Origin: Carboxylicivirga linearis
Lineage (GTDB): Bacteria; Bacteroidota; Bacteroidia; Bacteroidales; Marinilabiliaceae
Assembly (NCBI RefSeq): GCF_018271995.1
Contig: NZ_JAGUCO010000007.1
Span: 1-64,000, forward strand
Length of the DNA stretch: 64,000 nt
Direction: 5' to 3'
The position numbers and the translations under genes are program-made. The notes under the pieces are model-generated. The model saw only the letters and a program-made list of their open reading frames with translations. It had not been told where the DNA came from and did no database searches. Below are positions 1 to 19,236 of the stretch, piece by piece. How positions within the stretch are numbered: position 1 is the first letter of the stretch; the number at the start of each line of letters is the position of its first letter.

Positions 1-91
1 TGCTCGTCCTGACACTTTAGTCTACCGTCTTAGTCCCCCTATCGGGTGACACGACACCACGACTAATGCGCCACGACTTCATCCAGCCAAC
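1..91. other. Non-coding left edge, more GC-rich than the gene beside it
   Basis: No open reading frame that I can support. The stretch is visibly richer in G and C than the very AT-rich gene that follows and it runs straight into the inverted repeat at 92-101. It may be the end of a neighbouring cassette or a recombination site, but nothing here is recognisable. Confidence 0.3.
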
Positions 92-101
92 GTTGCCAGT
101 A
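92..101 (+). repeat. Left inverted repeat of the nuclease-helicase module
   Basis: GTTGCCAGTA here is the exact reverse complement of TACTGGCAAC at 3175-3184. The similarity continues inward for several more bases as a T-rich run. The two copies lie 28 bp before the first gene and 6 bp after the second, so they bracket the two-gene module closely. I infer cassette or islet ends; a function is not shown. Confidence 0.55.
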
Positions 102-128
102 ATTTTAAGAGACCTCACTACATAGATT

Positions 129-827
129 ATGGAAATTATAAATATTGAAAATATAGACATGAGTAAATATGGCAAAATAGCCAAAGGAAGTGTCTATAAA
201 ATTCATGTGAGGATTGATGATATTGAGGAAAGAGCGAAAGAATTAATAAAAACGATATCAGATAAAAGTTGGATATCGGGATTAGATATTATTGAACAAA
301 TATCATATGAAGCTAGAGCCGAAAAAACAATTACTAAGCTTGTAACTGAAATATTCGAGAAAGTTGACAATGTAGTAACAGAAGAATTTGGTGAATACTT
401 AGTTTCTGAATCTGCTAGAGATTCTCTCTGTGATAATTTCAAACATATTAAATTGCCCCTTGCAGAAATATGGAAAGAGAAGAAAACAGGTAATCCTGGA
501 TTTGATTTCCACACAGAAAGTGAAAGCAAATTACTGTCGTTTGGGGAGGCAAAATATAGTAGCTCTTCAAATCCTCATACGGATGCAATAAATCAGATAG
601 TAGGTTTTATTGCAAAGAATAAGGATAAGATGGAGCTAACAGACTTAAAGCATTTTTGCTCCAAAGAGGCTGTTGGAAATGCAATAAAGGGACACAAGGC
701 ATACGTAGCTGCTTTTTCTGTAAATGGACAACAATATGATAGAATATTTGATACAGCATTGAATTCGAAAGGTTTTGAGGAGTTGCTAGGTTTTCCTGAA
801 CTATACATAATTGGAGTGGAGGTATGA
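129..827 (+). CDS. HamA/AbpA-like PD-(D/E)XK nuclease subunit (putative phage defence)
   Basis: The 232-residue protein has a PD-(D/E)XK-like core: D126 in GFDFH, then E140 and K142 in the strand LLSFGEAKY. In Hachiman-type systems HamA is a nuclease of this fold (DUF1837-like) paired with an SF2 helicase, and E. coli AbpA/AbpB is a similar pair. The next gene here is exactly such a helicase and overlaps by ATGA (start 824, stop 825-827), so the two are probably translationally coupled. The residues and overlap are seen; the assignment to Hachiman/AbpAB rests on architecture and size. Composition is very AT-rich and the pair sits between inverted repeats, which fits acquisition by transfer. 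Other nuclease-helicase defence families remain possible. Confidence 0.6.
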   Translation: MEIINIENIDMSKYGKIAKGSVYKIHVRIDDIEERAKELIKTISDKSWISGLDIIEQISYEARAEKTITKLVTEIFEKVDNVVTEEFGEYLVSESARDSLCDNFKHIKLPLAEIWKEKKTGNPGFDFHTESESKLLSFGEAKYSSSSNPHTDAINQIVGFIAKNKDKMELTDLKHFCSKEAVGNAIKGHKAYVAAFSVNGQQYDRIFDTALNSKGFEELLGFPELYIIGVEV

Positions 828-3169
828 ATATTCTAAAATATATTGAAGGAGTAGAAGTTGAGGATGTTATTCAAGAAATTTTGGATAATATACATATTTA
901 TGGTCCAGTTAATACTCATGATTTTGAAAGACTTTCATTCATTAAAAAATATCATCCACAAGTTTTTTCTTTGTACGAAGGAAAGCTAATGCATTTAATA
1001 GGTTTGTTTTATAAAACTACCACACCTCAAAGTTTAATTGAGGAAGTTTATTCAATTTATGCAGATGCAATTGAGGAAGACACAGGTCATAGATTTACAC
1101 CAATACAAGCGAGTGCATTCCGAAAAATTAGTGATAAGAGATATTTTTCATTTTCTGCACCAACGAGTTCAGGCAAATCATACTTGTTTAGAGAGTTGAT
1201 TTTAAATACAGAAGAAGATATTATAATAGTAGTACCTTCAAGAGCTTTAATTTCGGAATACATCTTTAGGGTAAAAGACATGCTTAAAGATGACACCTCA
1301 GTTTTAGTTTTGCAGTTTATTGAAAATGTCAACATATACAATACAACAAGAAGAATCTATATAATTACTCCCGAAAGAGGTGAAGACTTATTTAGTAAAA
1401 TTGGTGATTTAAATATTGGGTTATTTCTATTTGATGAAGCTCAAATATCAGAAGAACGTATCAGAGGTATGCGGTTTGACTCTTTTGTGCGAAGAGTTGA
1501 TAGGTTAATTCCAAACGCAAAAAAAGTATTCACGCATCCATTTGTTGAAAATCCACAAGCTCAACTTCTAAAACATGGATTTGAAAACGACTCTGCTTAT
1601 GCACGATACAACCAAAGTTCTGTAGGGAAAATCTACATATCTGAAAGTAATAAAGGTTTCCATTATTTTTCTCCTTTTATAGATGATAAAAACAGAGAGT
1701 TTGTAGATGTTAATTATGACTTAGTTGAGGATGTTTTAATTAACAACGGAACATTACTTATTTACATCTCAAAGAATAAAATCTATGATGGTACATATAT
1801 TACAGATTACGCTAAGTATATAGAACTATGTCCTAAACTAGATGAAGAAGAGTCAATTCTGATTATTGATGAACTAAGAAGTTTTATCGGAGCCTCTACA
1901 GCTCTTGGAGACAAACATTCTCACATGATTGACATGATGGAAAAAGGGATTGTTGTTCATCATGGTTCAATGCCTTTATTTGCAAGACTTTTAATTGAAA
2001 AATTTGTAAACCAAGGTCATGCAAAAATTTGTTTTGCCACATCTACCTTGACTCAAGGAATAAACATGCCTTTTGATATCGTTTGGATTGATAATTTTAG
2101 ATTTCAGGGTAATGAAAATATTAAAAACCTTGATTTGAAAAATCTAATTGGTAGAGCTGGTCGAAGCACTCCTGAGCTTAACTCATTTGATTATGGATAT
2201 GTAATAATCAAATCAAGAAATGTAGGTAGGTTTTGTCTTCGTATGCAAGAAACAACAAATTTATCCGAATCATCAATGCTTGACTCTAGTATAGCTGATT
2301 TGGATGAAGACTTAAGAGATGTTTCAGAAGCAATCCAGAATGATACATTTGATAATGATTTACACCTGACACAAAGTCAAGTAGTGAGATTGTCAGAAGC
2401 CGAAATCAATGACCACATTCAGCTTATTTTAGATAATTTTTTAATTGACGAAAAACCGATTACTGGGAAAGCATACTATGAAATTGAGAATGATACAAGA
2501 AGTGCAATCAAGAATTCATTCAAACAAATTTATATCAGTCATTTAAGAAAAAATGCTCTAACAAAAGGAGAAGCAAGTGTTTTAAGTGTATCTATTCCTA
2601 TTTTGTTGTGGAAGATTCAGGGTAAATCATTTAAAGAAATTGTTTCCTTACGTCATGCATTCTTGACAAATAAAGATGCTCAGCGAAATATTCAAACTAG
2701 ATTGCGGAGACAAGAAATATTACCATCCGAGGCTGCAACACTAAGGGAGAAAATAACCATTAGACATTCAACGATTGCAACATCGCTTCCTGATTCGGGT
2801 GCCACAACTGCTGGTATTTTCAGAAGAAATACATCAATAATTCATTTTGACTATGATATTTTAGTTTATGACACCTACGATTATTTAGATAAAGTTATTT
2901 CACTGTCCTTATCAGACCCATTATCAGCTGCATTTAAAATTTATCATGATAAAACAGGTGATAATAGAGCATTGATACTAAGAAATTATATTAAATATGG
3001 CACCAATGATGATGTAGAAATTTGGCTTTTAAGATATGGTTTTGGTTTTGAAGAAATCGAATGGATAAAAGGTTATATAGTTTCCATAGATGAAAATGAA
3101 ATTGTATTTTCCGATGAAATAGATGGTTTGTCTGATTCGCGATATGAATTAATTGAGAGGTATGTATAA
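824..3169 (+). CDS. HamB/AbpB-like superfamily 2 helicase (putative phage defence)
   Basis: A 781-residue SF2 helicase. A Q-like motif FTPIQ is at 91-95, Walker A APTSSGKS at 112-119, and the DEAQ box at 204-207. The second RecA domain has HHGSMP near 378, ATSTLTQGINMP near 405-417 and GRAGR near 443-447, as in Ski2/RecQ-like and HamB-like enzymes. The last ~300 residues have no motif I recognise and may bind the partner nuclease. In Hachiman-type systems the helicase senses damaged or foreign DNA and releases the nuclease; that is family knowledge, not visible here. A good Shine-Dalgarno (GGAGG) sits inside the end of the nuclease gene just before ATG 824. At 781 residues it is nearer the AbpB size than the larger HamB proteins. 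Confidence 0.65.
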   Translation: MNILKYIEGVEVEDVIQEILDNIHIYGPVNTHDFERLSFIKKYHPQVFSLYEGKLMHLIGLFYKTTTPQSLIEEVYSIYADAIEEDTGHRFTPIQASAFRKISDKRYFSFSAPTSSGKSYLFRELILNTEEDIIIVVPSRALISEYIFRVKDMLKDDTSVLVLQFIENVNIYNTTRRIYIITPERGEDLFSKIGDLNIGLFLFDEAQISEERIRGMRFDSFVRRVDRLIPNAKKVFTHPFVENPQAQLLKHGFENDSAYARYNQSSVGKIYISESNKGFHYFSPFIDDKNREFVDVNYDLVEDVLINNGTLLIYISKNKIYDGTYITDYAKYIELCPKLDEEESILIIDELRSFIGASTALGDKHSHMIDMMEKGIVVHHGSMPLFARLLIEKFVNQGHAKICFATSTLTQGINMPFDIVWIDNFRFQGNENIKNLDLKNLIGRAGRSTPELNSFDYGYVIIKSRNVGRFCLRMQETTNLSESSMLDSSIADLDEDLRDVSEAIQNDTFDNDLHLTQSQVVRLSEAEINDHIQLILDNFLIDEKPITGKAYYEIENDTRSAIKNSFKQIYISHLRKNALTKGEASVLSVSIPILLWKIQGKSFKEIVSLRHAFLTNKDAQRNIQTRLRRQEILPSEAATLREKITIRHSTIATSLPDSGATTAGIFRRNTSIIHFDYDILVYDTYDYLDKVISLSLSDPLSAAFKIYHDKTGDNRALILRNYIKYGTNDDVEIWLLRYGFGFEEIEWIKGYIVSIDENEIVFSDEIDGLSDSRYELIERYV

Positions 3170-3174
3170 AAAAC

Positions 3175-3184
3175 TACTGGCAAC
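3175..3184 (-). repeat. Right inverted repeat of the nuclease-helicase module
   Basis: TACTGGCAAC, the reverse complement of 92-101, begins 6 bp after the helicase stop codon. It is followed by a short hairpin-forming stretch (ACGCG near 3184-3188 with CGCGT near 3204-3208), which could be a terminator or part of a recombination site. Confidence 0.55.
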
Positions 3185-3839
3185 ACGCGTTATAAAACAT
3201 AGCGCGTAAAGTGTTATATTTGAAAGAAACAATATTTAATCAACGGTTTAGCGGGCTGATAGATTTGTGCTTCGAAGTGCGCAACGTTTCATACGTGTGC
3301 CAAGACGCAGTACATCGGCGTTAAACAGTACTGCATGCTTTAATTGAGATGATGGAAACCAGTTGTACGGTTGGCCCATCGGTGTCGTCTTGCAGGAGAG
3401 GGCATCAAACCACCTAAAGGTGCTGTGGTAAAGAGCCATGGTATTGAGCGTTTAGGAAAAGCTTACTCCATGAGGGTTTGCAGGTAGGTATAAAGGAGAT
3501 GAACGTAAGTAAACCGCTGAAGAGGTGTCGAGAACGTGCCATACTCAGTCAAAAGCCGTAGAGGTATGAATGCGGTGATAAGTGTAGCGGAAACCTGATT
3601 ACTGGCTGCACGGCTGGCGTCATTCAGGCGGCATGAACTTTATACAGGCTTGGTTAAGGAACTTGGGAAACTGCATATCAATGCCAAGCGAAAGGTACAA
3701 TAGAATCAAGCTAGAGGCCGAAAAGCGAAGTGGTATGCAGAGACGGACTGACCAGTAGTAGCGATGAAGTACCTGTAATGGGAATGGAGCCAAGGGGTCA
3801 GGTTATACAGTATCATAACATTTACCAACTCGGAAGAGG

Positions 3840-5093
3840 ATGAATTTATGGAATGAAACAAAATCAATACCGATAAGTCGCCAAATGATCTGGGAGGCTT
3901 ATAAAAAGGTAAAGGCCAACAAAGGGAGTGAGGGAGTTGACGAGGTTAGTATGGACGAGTTCGATGCCAACCGAAGTAAGCACCTGTACAAACTTTGGAA
4001 TCGAATGGCATCAGGCAGCTATTTTCCACCACCAGTCAAAGAGGTGGAGATATCGAAAGATGATGGAGGAATTCGCAAATTGGGAGTGCCAACCATCGCA
4101 GATAGAGTAGGTCAAATGGCTGTAAAAGATTATTTTGAGCCAAGATTCGAAAAGCTATTCAGCGAACACTCTTATGGTTATCGACCTAACAAAAGTGCCC
4201 ATCAGGCATTGACTGATGTCAGGGAGAACTGTTGGAAGTATGATTGGGTGATCGATTTGGATATTAAGGGATTCTTTGACAACATTAGCCACGAAAAACT
4301 CATGGTAGCAGTACAAAGGCACGTTCCGGAACATTGGGCGTGCATGTATATCAAAAGGTGGTTAGAAATGCCTGTGCAACAGAAAGACGGAAATCTAATG
4401 GAGCGACAGGGTAAAGGCACTCCGCAAGGAGGTGTGATAAGCCCGTTGCTAGCAAATCTGTTTCTTCATTACACGTTCGATAAATGGCTAGAACTAAAAG
4501 CTTCTGGGGTAAAATATGTGCGTTATGCCGATGATGCCATAATTCACTGCAAAAGCCAAGCCCAAGCGGAATGGGTGTTAAGTCAACTGCATCAAAGAAT
4601 GAACGACTGCGGATTGGAATTACACCCCGAGAAAACAAAGTTGGTGTATTGTCGAGACTATAAGCGTAAAGGCAAGTACAGAACTGTAAAATTTGATTTT
4701 CTTGGTTTCTCGTTTCAACCTCGTACGACCAAATCCAAGAGGACAGGGAAACTGTTCTTGGGTTTTGATTGTGCAATAAGTATAAAATCACGTAAGAAAC
4801 TAGCCGACAAACTGGAGGAACTTGATATTATAAACATGAGTTTCAAAAGTATAGTAGGTATAGCCCAAAAGTTGAATCCACTTATTCGGGGTTGGATAAA
4901 CTATTATGGTAAATTCAGAGGACATGAGCTTTCAAAGGTATTCTACCTCTTGTGGTGCCGATTGGTACGCTGGGCGCGAAAACGGTATAAACGCTATAGG
5001 TATAGCCTCAATAAAGCCTATGCATGGTTGGATAGGGTAAGGAAACAATATCCTTACTTGTTTTACCATTGGCAATTGAGATATTCCCATTAA
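3840..5093 (+). CDS. ltrA: Group II intron reverse transcriptase/maturase, endonuclease-free
   Basis: At 417 residues it has the length of RmInt1-type proteins. The reverse transcriptase domain spans roughly residues 20-300: the substrate-contact motif GIRKLGVP, DIKGFFDNI with the first catalytic aspartate, TPQGGVISPLLANLFLHY, and YVRYADDAI with the catalytic YADD box. The maturase (X) domain follows with LNPLIRGWINYYGKF. The protein stops after X and a short basic tail; there is no HNH endonuclease, so retrohoming would rely on replication-fork or other primers, as known for RmInt1. It binds and splices its own intron RNA. Translation starts at ATG 3840 after GGAAGAGGA. No frameshift or stop is seen, so it is probably functional. 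Confidence 0.93.
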   Translation: MNLWNETKSIPISRQMIWEAYKKVKANKGSEGVDEVSMDEFDANRSKHLYKLWNRMASGSYFPPPVKEVEISKDDGGIRKLGVPTIADRVGQMAVKDYFEPRFEKLFSEHSYGYRPNKSAHQALTDVRENCWKYDWVIDLDIKGFFDNISHEKLMVAVQRHVPEHWACMYIKRWLEMPVQQKDGNLMERQGKGTPQGGVISPLLANLFLHYTFDKWLELKASGVKYVRYADDAIIHCKSQAQAEWVLSQLHQRMNDCGLELHPEKTKLVYCRDYKRKGKYRTVKFDFLGFSFQPRTTKSKRTGKLFLGFDCAISIKSRKKLADKLEELDIINMSFKSIVGIAQKLNPLIRGWINYYGKFRGHELSKVFYLLWCRLVRWARKRYKRYRYSLNKAYAWLDRVRKQYPYLFYHWQLRYSH

Positions 5094-5115
5094 CTTGTAG
5101 CAGATTGTATAACAA

Positions 5116-5149
5116 GAGCCGTATGATGGGAGACTATCACGTACGGTTC
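5116..5149 (+). ncRNA. Group II intron domain V (catalytic hairpin)
   Basis: This 34-nt stretch starts GAGCCGTATG and ends GTACGGTTC, folding into the standard domain V hairpin with a GGGA-type loop. It contains the AGC catalytic triad in the 5' strand. Domain VI follows at about 5150-5185 and should carry the bulged adenosine that starts splicing. Confidence 0.88.
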
Positions 5150-5196
5150 TGTGAGAGGCTTAGGGTGCAATTCCCTTTGCCTACTCGACCGCCACC

Positions 5197-5205
5197 GTTA
5201 TGGGC
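5197..5205 (+). repeat. Left inverted repeat of the HAD-hydrolase module
   Basis: GTTATGGGC is the exact reverse complement of GCCCATAAC at 6697-6705. It begins only 7 bp after the intron end and 48 bp before the first gene of the module. The layout parallels the pair at 92-101 and 3175-3184, and similar ends are common around accessory genes in Bacteroidota (from memory, not checked). Confidence 0.5.
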
Positions 5206-5252
5206 AAGGTTAACTGACGGGCTTTGATACTTTTACAGGTAATTAAAAGAGA

Positions 5253-5891
5253 ATGAATAAAGCGATTATATTTGATATGGATGGAGTCTTAATTGACTCG
5301 GAAAGATTTTGGAAGCAAGCAGAGAATGAGGTATTTACATCTTTAGGAGTAAAAGTCACTAATGAATACTCTAAACTAACGGAATCAATGACAACTTCAG
5401 AGGTTACTAAGTTTTGGTATGATAAATATCCTTGGAAAAACATAGAATTAAGGACTGTAGAAGAAATGGTTATTTCAAGAGTTATAGAATTGATTAAAAC
5501 TGAAAATTGTCAAATTAAAGGAGTAAAACCATTTATTGAAAAACTTAAAACAAAAAAATATAAAATTGGATTAGCAACAAATTCACCAGATAAAATCATT
5601 CCTGTGGTTTTAGAAAAATTAAATGTTTTTCATTTATTTGATTCCATTTCATCCGCGGAGTTTGAAATAAAAGGTAAGCCTGACCCTGCAATATATTTTA
5701 AAGCTGCAAAAAAGTTAGGGATTAAACCTGAAAACTGTATTGTAATTGAAGATTCTTATTCAGGTATGTTGGCAGCAAAAAATGCAAGAATGAAAGTTGT
5801 TGCTTTTACCAATGGAAATAGAGAATGTGACTTTGAAATAGCCGACTATAAAATAGAAAATTTTAACGATAAAGAAATCGAATTTATATAA
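5253..5891 (+). CDS. HAD-superfamily phosphatase (beta-phosphoglucomutase/HxpB type)
   Basis: The 212-residue protein opens with FDMDGVLIDSE, the HAD motif I with both catalytic aspartates. A helical cap follows (about 15-85). Motif II is at ATNSP and the motif III lysine at KGKPDP, then IEDSYSGMLAA is motif IV with the magnesium-binding acid. This is the subfamily of sugar-phosphate phosphatases and beta-phosphoglucomutases such as E. coli YniC/HxpB, acting on hexose- or hexitol-phosphates in the cytoplasm. The substrate here cannot be read. The next gene starts on the base after its stop codon, so the two are co-translated. It lies in an inverted-repeat-bounded module between an intron and an insertion sequence. 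Confidence 0.82.
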   Translation: MNKAIIFDMDGVLIDSERFWKQAENEVFTSLGVKVTNEYSKLTESMTTSEVTKFWYDKYPWKNIELRTVEEMVISRVIELIKTENCQIKGVKPFIEKLKTKKYKIGLATNSPDKIIPVVLEKLNVFHLFDSISSAEFEIKGKPDPAIYFKAAKKLGIKPENCIVIEDSYSGMLAAKNARMKVVAFTNGNRECDFEIADYKIENFNDKEIEFI

Positions 5892-6671
5892 ATGACAAAT
5901 AGTAAGAAAGATAATTGGTTTACAATTGAAAAAATTGACGAGAACACATCAATAATAAGTGAGTACAAACATTGGGAAGAAACACATTGCTATGTGCTAA
6001 ATGGGACAGAAAAATGTTTGCTAATTGATACGGGACTTGGAGTTGAAAATATTCTGGAACAAGTACAAATACTAACAGATAAACCTGTTACAGTCGTTAC
6101 GACACACGTGCACTACGACCATTTTGGTGGACATAAATATTTCCCTGACTTTTATGTGCACGAAGCAGAAACAGAATGGATAAATGGAGGATTTCCATTG
6201 GCAATAGAACAAGTTAGAAACTTTTTGATAGAAGAACCGTGCGATTTTCCAAAAGATTTTAATGTTAACGATTACGACCTTTTTAAAGGAGTTCCGACAA
6301 GAATACTAAAAGATAACGATACAATTGAATTGGGAGGACGAACAATACAAGTTTTACACACTCCTGGACATTCACCAGGACATATGTGCTTTTTTGAAAA
6401 AGATAAAGGCTATTTATACACAGGAGATTTGATTTATATGGATGTATTGTTTGCGGATTTTCCATCAACAGACCCAATTGCTTATATGAATTCAATTAAA
6501 AAATTATTGCCATTGACTGTAAAGAAAATTTTACCTGCACATCACGATTTAAATGTACCATTGTCGATTATAAAAGATATGGATAAAGCTTTTTCCAAAT
6601 TGTACGAGAAAGGAAAATTAAAACACGGAAGTGGAACATTTACATATGAGAATTTTGGAATAAGACTTTGA
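5892..6671 (+). CDS. Metallo-beta-lactamase-fold hydrolase
   Basis: A 259-residue MBL-fold protein. The metal-binding signature is THVHYDHFGGH (HxHxDH), followed by a histidine in HTPGHSPGHM and an aspartate in LYTGDLIYMD; a last histidine lies in LPAHHDLN. All five usual ligands appear present, so an active binuclear (zinc) hydrolase is expected. The subgroup includes glyoxalase II-like thioesterases, lactonases and others, so the substrate is open. Its ATG follows the HAD gene's TAA without a gap, which suggests linked function, perhaps detoxification or repair of a small metabolite (inference). The gene is AT-rich and part of the same module. Confidence 0.8.
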   Translation: MTNSKKDNWFTIEKIDENTSIISEYKHWEETHCYVLNGTEKCLLIDTGLGVENILEQVQILTDKPVTVVTTHVHYDHFGGHKYFPDFYVHEAETEWINGGFPLAIEQVRNFLIEEPCDFPKDFNVNDYDLFKGVPTRILKDNDTIELGGRTIQVLHTPGHSPGHMCFFEKDKGYLYTGDLIYMDVLFADFPSTDPIAYMNSIKKLLPLTVKKILPAHHDLNVPLSIIKDMDKAFSKLYEKGKLKHGSGTFTYENFGIRL

Positions 6672-6696
6672 AAACAAGAAAATTGATTAAAACCCA

Positions 6697-6705
6697 GCCC
6701 ATAAC
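6697..6705 (-). repeat. Right inverted repeat of the HAD-hydrolase module
   Basis: GCCCATAAC, reverse complement of 5197-5205, lies 25 bp after the stop of the MBL-fold gene. The left end of the IS1182-family element begins only 8 bp further on, so the insertion is at or beside this module end. Confidence 0.5.
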
Positions 6706-6713
6706 ATTTGTAA

Positions 6714-8402
6714 CTGTTGCACAACTAGCAAATAGCCAAAAATTATTAACTTAAGGCATGCAAGGCAATAAAGAATATCAGGAAAAGCTATTTGTTAGTT
6801 TTCAGCTCAGTCAAGTTGTTCCAGAGCATAACTTCTACCGCCGATTAAAGTCAGTATTGAATCTGGATTTTCTGCTAAAAGAAACCGAATCTTATTATGG
6901 TAATTGCGGTCAAAAAAGTATCGATCCACGTGTCTTTTTTAAGTTATGTATTGTGGGCTATTTAGAGAATATTATTAGCGATCGTAAATTAATTGAACAT
7001 TGTTCAATGCGTCTGGATATATTGTATTTTTTGGGATATGATATTGACGAGCCCTTGCCTTGGCACAGCACTGTCAGCCGCACCCGTCAGTTGTTTCCAG
7101 AGGATATTTTCGAAAAGGTATTTACTCAGATATTTAAATTGTGTGTTGACAGTGGTCTGGTGAGCGGACATACTCAGGCTACTGATGCCGCCCCTATCAA
7201 AGCCAATGCAAGCATGGATAGTCTGGAGTTAAAAGTACCGGAAGAAGAACTGGAAGAACATTTATCAAAAATAAGAGCCATCTCCCATGGAGATCAGCAA
7301 CCGGTGAGAAAAGCAAAGAAGGATAAAGCTCAATCTTCTCAAAGAAAAGTATCTGCCACTAAAGATGAACTCAATGAGATAGCTGCTCGCCAAAAGAAAT
7401 GGTCCACCGAGCAAACCACTCGTCAAGGAGCTAAATCCAAACGATCAAAATACACCAGCAACAAAACACATTACAGTCCTACGGATCCCGATGCACGTAT
7501 CAGCGTAAAGCCTGGAAAAGCTCGAAAGTTAAACTATCACGGAAACATTACGGTAGATACTTCACACAATATAATAAGCGACGTTCAAGCCTACCATGCA
7601 GATAGAGTTGACAGTAAAAACTTACAGGACATTGTTGAACGGACAAAAAATAGACTGACAAGATCCGGATTATTATGGACAACTATTTTGGCAGATGCCG
7701 GCTATAGCAGTGGCGAAAACTATCACTTTTTAGAAGACCAAAAACTGGTAAGTTACATCCCTAAGCACGGTACTTTTAAAGGAGGACCCGAAGGATTTAC
7801 CTTTGTAAAAGATCAGAATTATTGGATCTGTCCACAGGGAATTAAAGTAGTGTTCAAAAAACAAAAATACAGCAACGATTCATTACAAAATCATTATTAC
7901 ACCAAGCGAAGCGACTGTAAAAACTGTCCTCAGAAGAAGGCTTGCATTGGCAAATCGTTTGAAAAAAAGATTGCTATAACTGCTTATTTGGATGAATATC
8001 ATAGAAACAACAAACGTGTAAATAGCTGGTTTGGCAAACGAATGAAAGGCAAACGGCAAGCCACCGTAGAGCCAGCTTGGGGTACTTTAACCCAATTTCT
8101 TGGATTACGGAAGATTAATACGTTGGGACTAAAACAAGCAAATAAGGTTGTTCATATGGCTGCTTGTGCCTACAACTTGAAAAAACTATTAAAATATAGC
8201 ATAAGTAAGATTGAGTCTCAGGCAATGACTCCAAAAGCTAATATATTGACCAAATATGCTCTATTATTAGCCTTTTTAGACTCATATGGTACATTTTTAC
8301 GAATTATAACAAGAGCAACTAAAATGAGAATACAACTTTCTATTTTATGAATAGAATCTATATTAACGCATATAATTGTATAAAAAACGATTTGTGCAAC
8401 AG
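6714..8402 (+). mobile_element. IS1182-family insertion sequence
   Basis: An 11-bp perfect inverted repeat marks the ends: CTGTTGCACAA at 6714-6724 and TTGTGCAACAG at 8392-8402. They enclose one long transposase gene, giving an element of about 1.69 kb, normal for the family. No clear target duplication is visible; the flanks ACATTTGTAA on the left and ACATTTTGTATAA on the right resemble each other loosely. The transposase is uninterrupted, so the copy may be active. Confidence 0.82.
6758..8350 (+). CDS. IS1182-family transposase
   Basis: 530 residues. The N-terminal domain (about 15-100; KSIDPRVFFKLCIVGYLE and LPWHSTVSRTRQLFP) is the DUF772-type transposase domain. The DDE nuclease core has TQATDAAPIKANASMDS with the first aspartate and ILADAGYSSGENY with the second. 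A cysteine cluster CKNCPQKKAC precedes the C-terminal core, whose probable catalytic glutamate is in TVEPAWGTL. An inserted lysine- and glutamine-rich stretch (about 165-230) is typical. It catalyses cut-and-paste movement of the element. The gene fills nearly the whole interval between the inverted repeats. Confidence 0.92.
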   Translation: MQGNKEYQEKLFVSFQLSQVVPEHNFYRRLKSVLNLDFLLKETESYYGNCGQKSIDPRVFFKLCIVGYLENIISDRKLIEHCSMRLDILYFLGYDIDEPLPWHSTVSRTRQLFPEDIFEKVFTQIFKLCVDSGLVSGHTQATDAAPIKANASMDSLELKVPEEELEEHLSKIRAISHGDQQPVRKAKKDKAQSSQRKVSATKDELNEIAARQKKWSTEQTTRQGAKSKRSKYTSNKTHYSPTDPDARISVKPGKARKLNYHGNITVDTSHNIISDVQAYHADRVDSKNLQDIVERTKNRLTRSGLLWTTILADAGYSSGENYHFLEDQKLVSYIPKHGTFKGGPEGFTFVKDQNYWICPQGIKVVFKKQKYSNDSLQNHYYTKRSDCKNCPQKKACIGKSFEKKIAITAYLDEYHRNNKRVNSWFGKRMKGKRQATVEPAWGTLTQFLGLRKINTLGLKQANKVVHMAACAYNLKKLLKYSISKIESQAMTPKANILTKYALLLAFLDSYGTFLRIITRATKMRIQLSIL

Positions 8403-8717
8403 GCACATTTTGTATAAGTAATGGCAGGCGATGTGGTAAATATCAAGGTTTGTAGCCCGGTCAAACTGCGTAGTGGTTTGACAGGAAAGTGCCACGCAAT
8501 CTGCCACTACTCATAAAATCAACCGTGAAAAGGTGAAATGATAATCTTCCAATTAGCTTAAATACAATTATATATGGTTGTTTATTTGAAATTTATGGGA
8601 AATACAAATTGCCATACAAAAGGGTAAACAAAACACCTAAAAAATAATAGAAAACCTGTTGATAACTTTTATATTTTTTTATTTGTTGCCCTAATTTTGA
8701 TGTTCAATATAGATAGA
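8403..8717. other. Intergenic region between the insertion sequence and pit
   Basis: No gene seen in these 315 bp. A loosely paired stretch (TAGTGGTTTGA near 8471 with TGCCACTA near 8503) could fold into a hairpin. The left part is richer in GC than the right and resembles the other module junctions in this region. It separates the accessory modules from the phosphate-uptake genes. Confidence 0.4.
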
Positions 8718-17656: not shown

Positions 17657-18862
17657 TTAAAAGGACTGCCATATATTCTTTATTTTTTTCATGTCCTTAC
17701 TTATTTTAGAATCAATTATTTTACCATATATCTGTGTGGTTTTTATTGAAGTATGACCTAGCATTTTAGAAACTGTTTCAATAGGAACTCCGTTTGCAAG
17801 AGTAATAGTAGTTGCAAAGGTATGTCTAGCTACATGCATTGTAAGAGCCTTTTTAATATCACATATATCAGCTATTTCTTTAAGGTAGGTATTCATTTTT
17901 TGGTTACTGTTTGTTGGAAGGAGTTTACCTTTGTTTACACTCTCCGGATAGTTTTCGTATTTTGTTAGTATGGCTTTTGCTTTTGGCAATATAGGTATTC
18001 GGCAGCGAGTTGATGTTTTAGTTCTGTCAATTATTATCCATTCTTCAGCATCATCCCCTTTGAATATATGAAATTTAGTCAGTAGATGTATATCAGAATA
18101 AGATAAACCTGTATAACAGGCAAATAAAAAAATATCTCTAACAGTTCTTACTCTTTCTATCTCAATTTTCTTGTTTTCAATTTTTCTGATCTCATTTAGG
18201 GATAAGAAGTCTCTATTAGGTTGATAACGCTTAATCTTAAAACGTGTGTATGGATTTTTATCGATTAAGCCTAAGGCAATGGAATCATTTAATACTTTCT
18301 TTAGTTTTTTATGATAGTGGCCAATTGTATTAGGACCGACACTATGATGTATTTTTAAAAATGAGTCAAATGAAGTTATAAACTTGAAATTGATACCTGA
18401 TAAAGGGATATCCGTTTTTTTGTAGGTTACTTTAATAAACTCCTTGAGTCTCCCCAAGATGGTTTTATAATGTTTGTAGGTTCCATAAGAATAGTCATAT
18501 CCTACGCGTCTATGGATATCATCAAGAATGGTTTGAAAGGTATCAACAAGGAAATGTTTGGGAGTGTTGGTTAGACATTCTTTTAAATTGTTGATATCAT
18601 ACGGATTTCCTATAGCTTCTAATTGGTAATACTTATCAAATATGGTATTTGAAAAATTATTTAGTTTCTTATTCAAATTCCTTGAATTCTCAGCTAATGG
18701 AACAACTTGTTGTGCTAAATTATCCCAATCGCATGAATTTAGATAAACGCCTGTTGATAATTCTATCCTTTTTAAATCAATTGTACAACGAATGTAAACA
18801 GGATATTTGCCGTCTTTTCTACGTTTTGATTTCTTTAATAAGAAGTTAGTAATGAGTCTCAT
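17657..18862 (-). CDS. Tyrosine site-specific recombinase (integrase), Bacteroidota type
   Basis: 401 residues. An arm-binding N-terminus (about 1-90), a SAM-like core-binding domain (about 105-205) and the catalytic domain (about 215-400). Catalytic residues visible: lysine in RTKTSTRCR, HVARH (His and Arg), LGHTSI (His), and the nucleophile Tyr in TQIYGKI. The usual first arginine is replaced: the stretch reads CYTGLSYSDI, as in IntDOT-like recombinases of conjugative elements in this phylum. The gene starts 300 bp from the 3' end of tRNA-Arg, with a repeat cluster between, as expected for an element integrated at that tRNA. Confidence 0.9.
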   Translation of the reverse strand: MRLITNFLLKKSKRRKDGKYPVYIRCTIDLKRIELSTGVYLNSCDWDNLAQQVVPLAENSRNLNKKLNNFSNTIFDKYYQLEAIGNPYDINNLKECLTNTPKHFLVDTFQTILDDIHRRVGYDYSYGTYKHYKTILGRLKEFIKVTYKKTDIPLSGINFKFITSFDSFLKIHHSVGPNTIGHYHKKLKKVLNDSIALGLIDKNPYTRFKIKRYQPNRDFLSLNEIRKIENKKIEIERVRTVRDIFLFACYTGLSYSDIHLLTKFHIFKGDDAEEWIIIDRTKTSTRCRIPILPKAKAILTKYENYPESVNKGKLLPTNSNQKMNTYLKEIADICDIKKALTMHVARHTFATTITLANGVPIETVSKMLGHTSIKTTQIYGKIIDSKISKDMKKIKNIWQSF

Positions 18863-19162: not shown

Positions 19163-19236
19163 TGATCCCGACAGGATTCGAACCTGTGACCCACAGCTTA
19201 GAAGGCTGTTGCTCTATCCAGCTGAGCTACGGGACC
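19163..19236 (-). tRNA. tRNA-Arg(TCT)
   Basis: 74 bases on the minus strand fold into a complete cloverleaf: acceptor GGTCCCG/CGGGATC with discriminator A, D-arm with AGCTGGATA, anticodon stem-loop CAGCCTTCTAAGCTG with anticodon TCT, and T-arm with GGTTCGAATCC. CCA is not encoded. It reads AGA codons, which are frequent in this AT-rich DNA. The 3' end faces the repeats and integrase, so it may be an attachment site. Confidence 0.96.

Follow-up and report, generated by a model that had tools for sequence, protein, structure and literature searches.

The 64,000-nucleotide window analyzed here, the first part of contig NZ_JAGUCO010000007.1 (C159) of Carboxylicivirga linearis (assembly GCF_018271995.1), carries near its left end a two-gene module that encodes a nuclease (open reading frame 1, ORF1) and a superfamily 2 (SF2) helicase (ORF2). 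We find it very probable that this module is a compact and divergent Hachiman-like nuclease-helicase system that is borne as one cassette of an integron-type array. The window starts at base 1 of its contig, and thus everything to the left of the module is cut off. The features of the module and its surroundings are given in Table 1.

ORF1 is predicted to have the fold of HamA, the nuclease of Hachiman. We aligned eight ORF1-type proteins, placing the starts of two of them (L043 and L050) by similarity and omitting the relative from a metagenome-assembled genome (MAG; L023) because of a stop at codon 173. D126, E140 and K142 are invariant in all eight and belong to the blocks GFDF and FGEAK that these proteins have in common. 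The AlphaFold2 model built from this eight-row alignment (predicted local distance difference test [pLDDT] 88.6, predicted template modelling score [pTM] 0.88) had HamA (8vxy_A; E 2e-4, probability 1.00) as its sole Foldseek match in the PDB below E 0.001. With VIA-align 2, the top match was HamA 8vx9_A (Z 10.8, 185 residues aligned at a root-mean-square deviation [rmsd] of 4.2), the second HamA structure, 8vxy_A, reached Z 10.5, the HamA-like domain of AbpA (residues 263-520 of 8zue_A) reached Z 9.0, and the next fold was a repair endonuclease at Z 5.6. Profile-profile comparison of the ORF1 type with five HamAs returned a probability of 81.0% (E 1.2e-5), and the one comparison with seven HamAs returned 82.5% (E 9.8e-6). 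The alignment places the GEAK motif of ORF1 on the GEAK of the Pfam-defined HamAs. In 8vx9_A, the residues of this motif are E138-A-K140, and E138/K140 is the published catalytic pair of HamA, mutation of which abolished defence (PMC12278908). Other routes to ORF1 were silent: single-sequence searches of Pfam, PADLOC, NCBIfam, PDB sequences and PHROGs and a search of PDB sequences with the eight-relative profile returned nothing usable, and no match to ORF1 was found in plasmids and phages.

ORF2 encodes a Ski2-like relative of HamB, the helicase of Hachiman. It contains the Pfam families DEAD and Helicase_C, its best HamB model in PADLOC is HamB1 (E 3.3e-56, 189.3 bits), and HamB accounts for 21 of the best 25 of 29 PADLOC rows. 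The closest PDB sequence is 9wh1_B (6.7e-26), labelled as a DNA polymerase theta (Pol theta) helicase domain; HamB 8vx9_B (4.8e-11) and AbpB 8zue_B (3.6e-7) were also matched. Since 9wh1_A, from the same entry as 9wh1_B, is an AbpA/HamA-type protein, 9wh1_B is probably a partner of the HamB/AbpB type. Its name may be a transferred label. An unrooted tree of eight ORF2-type helicases and seven HamBs recovered the ORF2 type as one clade (support 100/100, branch 2.99), with HamB end branches of up to 3.81, two long ones meeting. Helicases of the ORF2 type have their Walker A lysine at residue 117-120, versus 131, 165, 166, 167, 172, 176 and 272 in the seven HamBs. The AlphaFold2 model of ORF2 begins with helices at residues 3-8, 12-26, 31-43, 45-59 and 71-87, with weak confidence at 61-70. 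Partial matches to the helicase core of ORF2 were present in 89 plasmid records and 2 phage records, and none of them reached 80% of the query.

The two genes, which overlap by ATGA, form a conserved pair. Counting all search seeds, the helicase is adjacent to the nuclease in eight of nine distinct ORF1 loci, and the contig of the remaining one (L048) stops at the nuclease. When 395 genomes of the phylum were searched with a helicase profile (E <= 1e-30, at most two candidates scored per genome), seven helicases from six genomes were returned. Three of them, scoring 1199-1404 bits, stand directly after an ORF1 relative (in the window, L044 and L045), and the other four are HamB-like, score 128-142 bits and stand directly after a HamA defined by PF08878 (Pfam). 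One of these four is from C. linearis itself, which also carries a canonical Hachiman pair in this way (C180:3820-7298, L058), composed of a HamA (PF08878, 2.6e-62) and an 861-aa helicase. Helicase-seeded scans of viral contigs led to two distinct loci (L043 and L049), both with the nuclease upstream. ORF1 relatives occur in the Bacteroidales-type genomes of L023 and L024 and in two more genomes of the phylum (three of 395 including its own). The nuclease of L024 shares 71% identity with ORF1, and the helicases of L024 and L023 share 73-74% with ORF2. The ORF1 profile scan of viral-collection contigs gave five rows, one of them a false match and one an already-known locus. The false match, L051, lies as a short motif within a phage amidase-like ORF and was dropped.

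The initial annotation of this DNA had described two genes with an ATGA overlap inside a perfect 10-bp inverted repeat, all of which is real, and had placed the PD-(D/E)XK residues correctly. Its comparison of the pair with Hachiman is supported by the fold of ORF1, which is closest to HamA, by modest profile-profile evidence and by the HamB models that match ORF2. Its suggestion of a distinct branch agrees with the separate clade among the 15 helicases, and its expectation that the two genes occur together agrees with their adjacency. Two points stood only in part. Similarity of ORF1 to DUF1837 is present at the level of the fold and absent from the Pfam and PADLOC profiles. The likeness to AbpA/AbpB extends to the C-terminal fold of AbpA; ORF1 has no room for the N-terminal nuclease domain of AbpA, and it retains residues that are reported inactive there.

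The module lies between R' and R'' and has an attC behind it; that is, it has the ends of an integron-type cassette. The inverted repeat GTTGCCAGTA / TACTGGCAAC is exact over 10 bp and 93% matched over 15 bp (92-106 / 3170-3184). When the two 128-base flanks were shuffled by mononucleotides, 7 of 500 trials produced a perfect repeat of equal or greater length, so that the bare repeat is only moderately unlikely and is weak evidence by itself. It gains meaning because other cassettes of the genome have like ends and because the ends are almost unchanged in two related modules. Searching its own genome with the stretch 1-128 gave 28 matches (E <= 1.3e-9, itself included) on 13 contigs, spaced on small contigs by 0.5-1.8 kb with a single gap of 4.1 kb, and the fuller attC-like copies read AAC-ACGCTGGAATAAAGCATGG...CATCCAGC-AAACG-TT. 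Of 22 own pairs, 12 have a cassette start and end that match in inverted orientation for 9-10 bp (10 bp in the module), versus 4 of 462 non-own pairs. Runs of 10 occur in eight pairs, and every one of these has A as base 11 of the start and G as base 11 of the end. Pairing of R' with R'' was seen in two of three folded attC-like sites from this genome. The L024 and L023 cassettes open with the same 16 bases as the module, GTTGCCAGTAATTTTA, and close with ACTACTGGCAA. L024 then continues with C-ACGCGGCATAAAACATTGG, like the attC of another body, and L023 has T for the final C. The L023 module is flanked by two stretches of 358 and 163 bp that are repeats of each other. By sequence, the start of the module's attC resembles the L024 attC; the placement of L' and L'' in it is an interpretive reading.

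Like integron cassettes, these units have attC-like sites with the layout R''-L''...L'-R', tandem genes on the same strand and a recombinase at the head of the array; the module differs in comprising two genes in 3.1 kb. The head of such an array is seen on contig C119 of the same genome, where the gene of a 495-aa tyrosine recombinase (2238-3725, L029) ends 27 bp ahead of the first of six cassettes (3753), which are tiled behind it on the same strand. This recombinase scores 205.6 bits against the IntI model TIGR02249 (cut-off 265). It has 60 residues between two landmarks of the catalytic domain, compared to 102 in IntI1, and is extended at the N-terminus by about 200 residues; across the 26 recombinases measured, the landmarks are always 60-65 residues apart. 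No match above the TIGR02249 cut-off was found in the C. linearis genome, an assembly of 180 contigs in which an IntI could have been left unassembled, and none of the three relatives from Natronoflexus, a MAG and a Pontibacter plasmid passed it. On C105, which carries pieces of a second recombinase of this genome, the first 12 kb hold no direct repeats of at least 25 bp. Relatives of the C119 recombinase at E <= 1e-60 are present in 81 of the 395 genomes, mostly through the catalytic part only; the relatives in Natronoflexus and the Bacteroidales MAG also match in that part only. At least two plasmid records cover 80% or more of it, and the one inspected, from Pontibacter kalidii, encodes a full-length relative (38% identical) that likewise has the N-terminal extension and no IntI segment and lies upstream of small genes on the same strand that come with attC-like sites.

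Cassette tiling was assessed at 25 recombinase loci: C119, the Pontibacter plasmid, two genomes selected for the length of their matches (G117 and G303) and 21 of the 23 best rows from further genomes, leaving out G092 and G212 (L115, the 26th locus; too little downstream sequence). At least two tiled cassettes were found at 15 loci, C119 among them, one at six and none at four, and the arrays of two or more begin 27-123 bp after the stop codon of the recombinase. The same result arose in 14 of 1000 shuffles (40 per locus), in 3 of 197 overlapping 5-kb control segments and in none of the six upstream stretches that were long enough. In four arrays, the gaps between cassettes resemble attC, being long imperfect palindromes between AAC and GTT.

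Integrons are known in Bacteroidota (PMC8618304), complete ones being described as recent and few, with Salinibacter ruber named (PMC9024848), and the IntI-specific domain is described as necessary for cassette recombination (PMC9668308). These loci depart from the canonical integron in that the head recombinases examined have no IntI-specific segment, and a literature search of open-licence papers found none on integron integrases without the IntI domain. Judging from its position, the recombinase may be the enzyme that moves these cassettes, and relatives without the IntI domain in front of tiled arrays may represent an undescribed integron type of the phylum. Taken as a whole, the proposal that a compact Hachiman subtype outside the HamA profiles rides on a cassette of an integron type that is apparently widespread in Bacteroidota and has a recombinase without the IntI-specific domain seems to us reasonably likely. 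Because such recombinases head 15 of 25 tested loci, domain-based searches would score loci of this kind as arrays without an integrase. If they do move cassettes, the accepted definition of the integron integrase would have to be widened, and a large store of Bacteroidota cassettes, the defence pair included, gains a candidate enzyme. For the two claims of the initial annotation about the borders, the outcome is mixed: the repeats do bracket the module, and they are not its own, being the general R'/R'' ends of cassettes; movement as a unit is supported, the carrier being an integron-type cassette, the attC of which an intron now interrupts, and not a free unit.

A number of observations weigh against the reading of the module as a Hachiman-like system on a cassette. 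For the nuclease, the structural match to HamA has 9% identity at its rmsd of 4.2, the profile-profile support is modest, and D126, which may be equivalent to the HamA aspartate, is off that residue in the profile alignment, so that equating the two needs a loop shorter by 4-5 residues. No HamA model of Pfam or PADLOC matched any of the eight ORF1-type proteins at E <= 1. PF08878 does detect the canonical HamA of this genome, and ORF1 is not a member of PF08878 as now modelled; we therefore file the system as Hachiman-like and not as Hachiman. The L023 nuclease (8001-8696) has its single in-frame stop after the catalytic core, the remaining frame being open. For the helicase, PHROG 6819, called a branch-migration helicase, scores 237.8 bits on ORF2 compared to 189.3 for the best HamB model. 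The ORF2 model is middling (pLDDT 73.9, pTM 0.70), and in VIA-align its core is similar to Hel308, Mtr4, Pol theta and AbpB alike (Z 19.2-20.7, within 1.5 Z). HamB 8vx9_B is not among the 50 structural matches listed for ORF2, which proves nothing either way. For the cassettes, 10 of the 22 own pairs have runs of only 3-6, some of them because the search pattern skipped an intervening site, as seen in a finer scan of C119; two starts in the 22-pair list were paired with a single cassette end, and the four non-own pairs also reach 9 bp. A finer scan of the window gave six pairs of at least 9 bp, compared to 2.9 by shuffling, and only two of them are cassettes. Bottom-strand folding of four attC-like sites was mixed (z -1.8, -4.8, -3.9 and 0.0). 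The Pontibacter plasmid is among the four loci without tiled cassettes, though attC-like sites and matched ends are visible there.

Three other explanations were weighed against these data. The module could be a repair or restriction-like unit that acts on host DNA and not in defence, which would fit a helicase core that is equally like Hel308 and Pol theta, the branch-migration helicase as best PHROG, and the repair nucleases NucS/EndoMS among the fold matches of ORF1 (Z 5.2-5.6). The nearest fold of ORF1 is HamA, however, and the pair is rare and patchy (those three of 395 phylum genomes) and occurs in cassettes, in contigs of viral collections and in islands, unlike core repair genes; we regard this explanation as unlikely. 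An AbpAB-type system, that is, a helicase with a protein whose HamA-like part is only structural, draws on the C-terminal domain of AbpA as second-best fold and on AbpB, which aligns to ORF2 residues 1 to 749 (Z 19.2) and is one of two structures aligning from residue 1 among the 50 VIA-align matches listed. The helicases are of similar size and both Ski2-like (the AbpB chain has 729 aa), and AbpA shares the HamA-like fold. Against this, D, E and K are invariant in ORF1 relatives, whereas the HamA-like site of AbpA is reported as inactive (PMC12278908), and since the HamA-like match spans all 232 residues, ORF1 has no N-terminal nuclease domain. An AbpAB-type system is thus quite improbable.

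The remaining alternative concerns the borders only. The flanking repeats could be the ends of a small transposon or of an element resembling a miniature inverted-repeat transposable element (MITE) and not parts of attC, as the 10-bp bracketing repeat and the lack of any genome match above the TIGR02249 cut-off would allow. Yet such cassettes tile head to tail, six in a row, behind the recombinase gene on C119. We dropped the transposon because the sequence of the ends differs from one cassette to the next while the two ends of a single cassette match, and we give it hardly any credence. A Hachiman-like system in an integron-type cassette remains the explanation that we favor. With Hachiman, the module shares the order of nuclease and helicase in one operon, a HamA fold with D and E-x-K, and a Ski2-like helicase matched by HamB profiles. 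It differs in a nuclease that is invisible to PF08878 and to the PADLOC HamA models, in a Walker A lysine nearer the N-terminus (117-120 versus 131-272) and in helicases that form a separate clade. The nuclease has 227-245 aa as called in seven of the eight aligned loci (the exception, L043, lies within an open frame of 391 aa), compared to 220-314 aa in eight Pfam-defined HamAs.

A function in phage defence, formation of a complex and DNA-triggered cutting are suggested by analogy with known systems. In E. coli HamAB, the helicase keeps the nuclease inactive in a complex, and aberrant DNA activates the nuclease, which degrades DNA (PMC12278908). On this model, ORF1 and ORF2 would associate in a complex, and as long as the DNA is intact the helicase would keep the nuclease inactive, possibly through the short helical N-terminus of ORF2. 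Loading of the helicase on aberrant DNA and hydrolysis of ATP would then switch the nuclease on, and phage and host DNA would be degraded. A search of open-licence papers found none on this compact HamA type or on Hachiman borne by an integron cassette. Papers of 2025 reportedly dealt with phage-defence genes in such cassettes, and defence in cassettes is therefore not new in itself. Since profile-based defence finders miss this HamA-fold nuclease, Hachiman-like systems are probably undercounted. The compact pair also offers a minimal version for finding out on which HamA and HamB parts sensing and release depend.

Table 1. Features of the module, its surroundings in the window and the array-head recombinases
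Feature	Position	Strand	Details
3' part of preceding attC-like site; contig begins inside	1-91	+	28 genome matches, E <= 1.3e-9
Cassette start, R' + extension, GTTGCCAGTA	92-101	+	Exact inverted match to 3175-3184
ORF1, compact PD-(D/E)XK nuclease of predicted HamA fold	129-827	+	232 aa; D126, E140, K142
ORF2, Ski2-like SF2 helicase, divergent HamB-like clade	824-3169	+	781 aa; Walker A K118, DEAQ 204-207, motif VI end R447
Cassette end, R'' + extension, TACTGGCAAC	3175-3184	+	Inverted match to start
5' part of module's attC, up to intron	3178-3276	+	R'' 3178-3184; candidate L'' GCGTT 3187-3191
Group II intron in putative L' part of module attC	3277-5189	+	GTGCG start, ...CGAC end (ends inferred); orientation as cassette genes
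Intron-encoded reverse transcriptase/maturase	3840-5093	+	417 aa; Pfam RVT_1 7e-41, GIIM 9.5e-13
Next cassette	5197-6705	+	Ends GTTATGGGC / GCCCATAAC, 9-bp inverted
Array-head recombinase loci			C119 (L029); L092, L093, L104-L107, L109, L110, L112, L114, L116-L119

The module probably arrived by attC recombination, and its attC has later been split by a group II intron. The intron is recognized by Rfam at both ends (group-II-D1D4-2 at 3366-3485, 95.3 bits; Intron_gpII at 5114-5189, 66.8 bits), and for the protein that it encodes no endonuclease family was listed by Pfam at E <= 0.001. Because the intron splits the attC, the module may be stuck and no longer excisable. The next cassette holds a HAD hydrolase gene (5253-5891) followed by 5892-6671, the HxHxDH motif of which suggests a metallo-β-lactamase (MBL)-fold hydrolase.

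Ten hand-picked neighbor genes of the related loci were scanned with Pfam, and nine matched. The neighbors are Mrr, TIR and integrase genes at L050, PIN_12 and YqaJ at L045, a Clp-like protease at L044 (where DUF4145 fell under its cut-off), a Dam-type methylase at L043 and Schlafen-AlbA_2 at L024. The settings of L043, L044, L045 and L050 count in favor of the Hachiman-like reading. To the left of the module, positions 1-93 of contig C129 (minus strand) are identical to window 1-93, so C129 may lie upstream, with an overlap that falls within the repeat. Further to the right in the window, a transposase gene (DUF772, DDE_Tnp_1_6; 6758-8350) starts 53 bp past the second cassette, where the attC of that cassette appears to be. 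A tyrosine recombinase (17657-18862; Arm-DNA-bind_5, SAM_5, integrase) lies near a tRNA gene (19163-19236) and possibly belongs to a separate integrative element.

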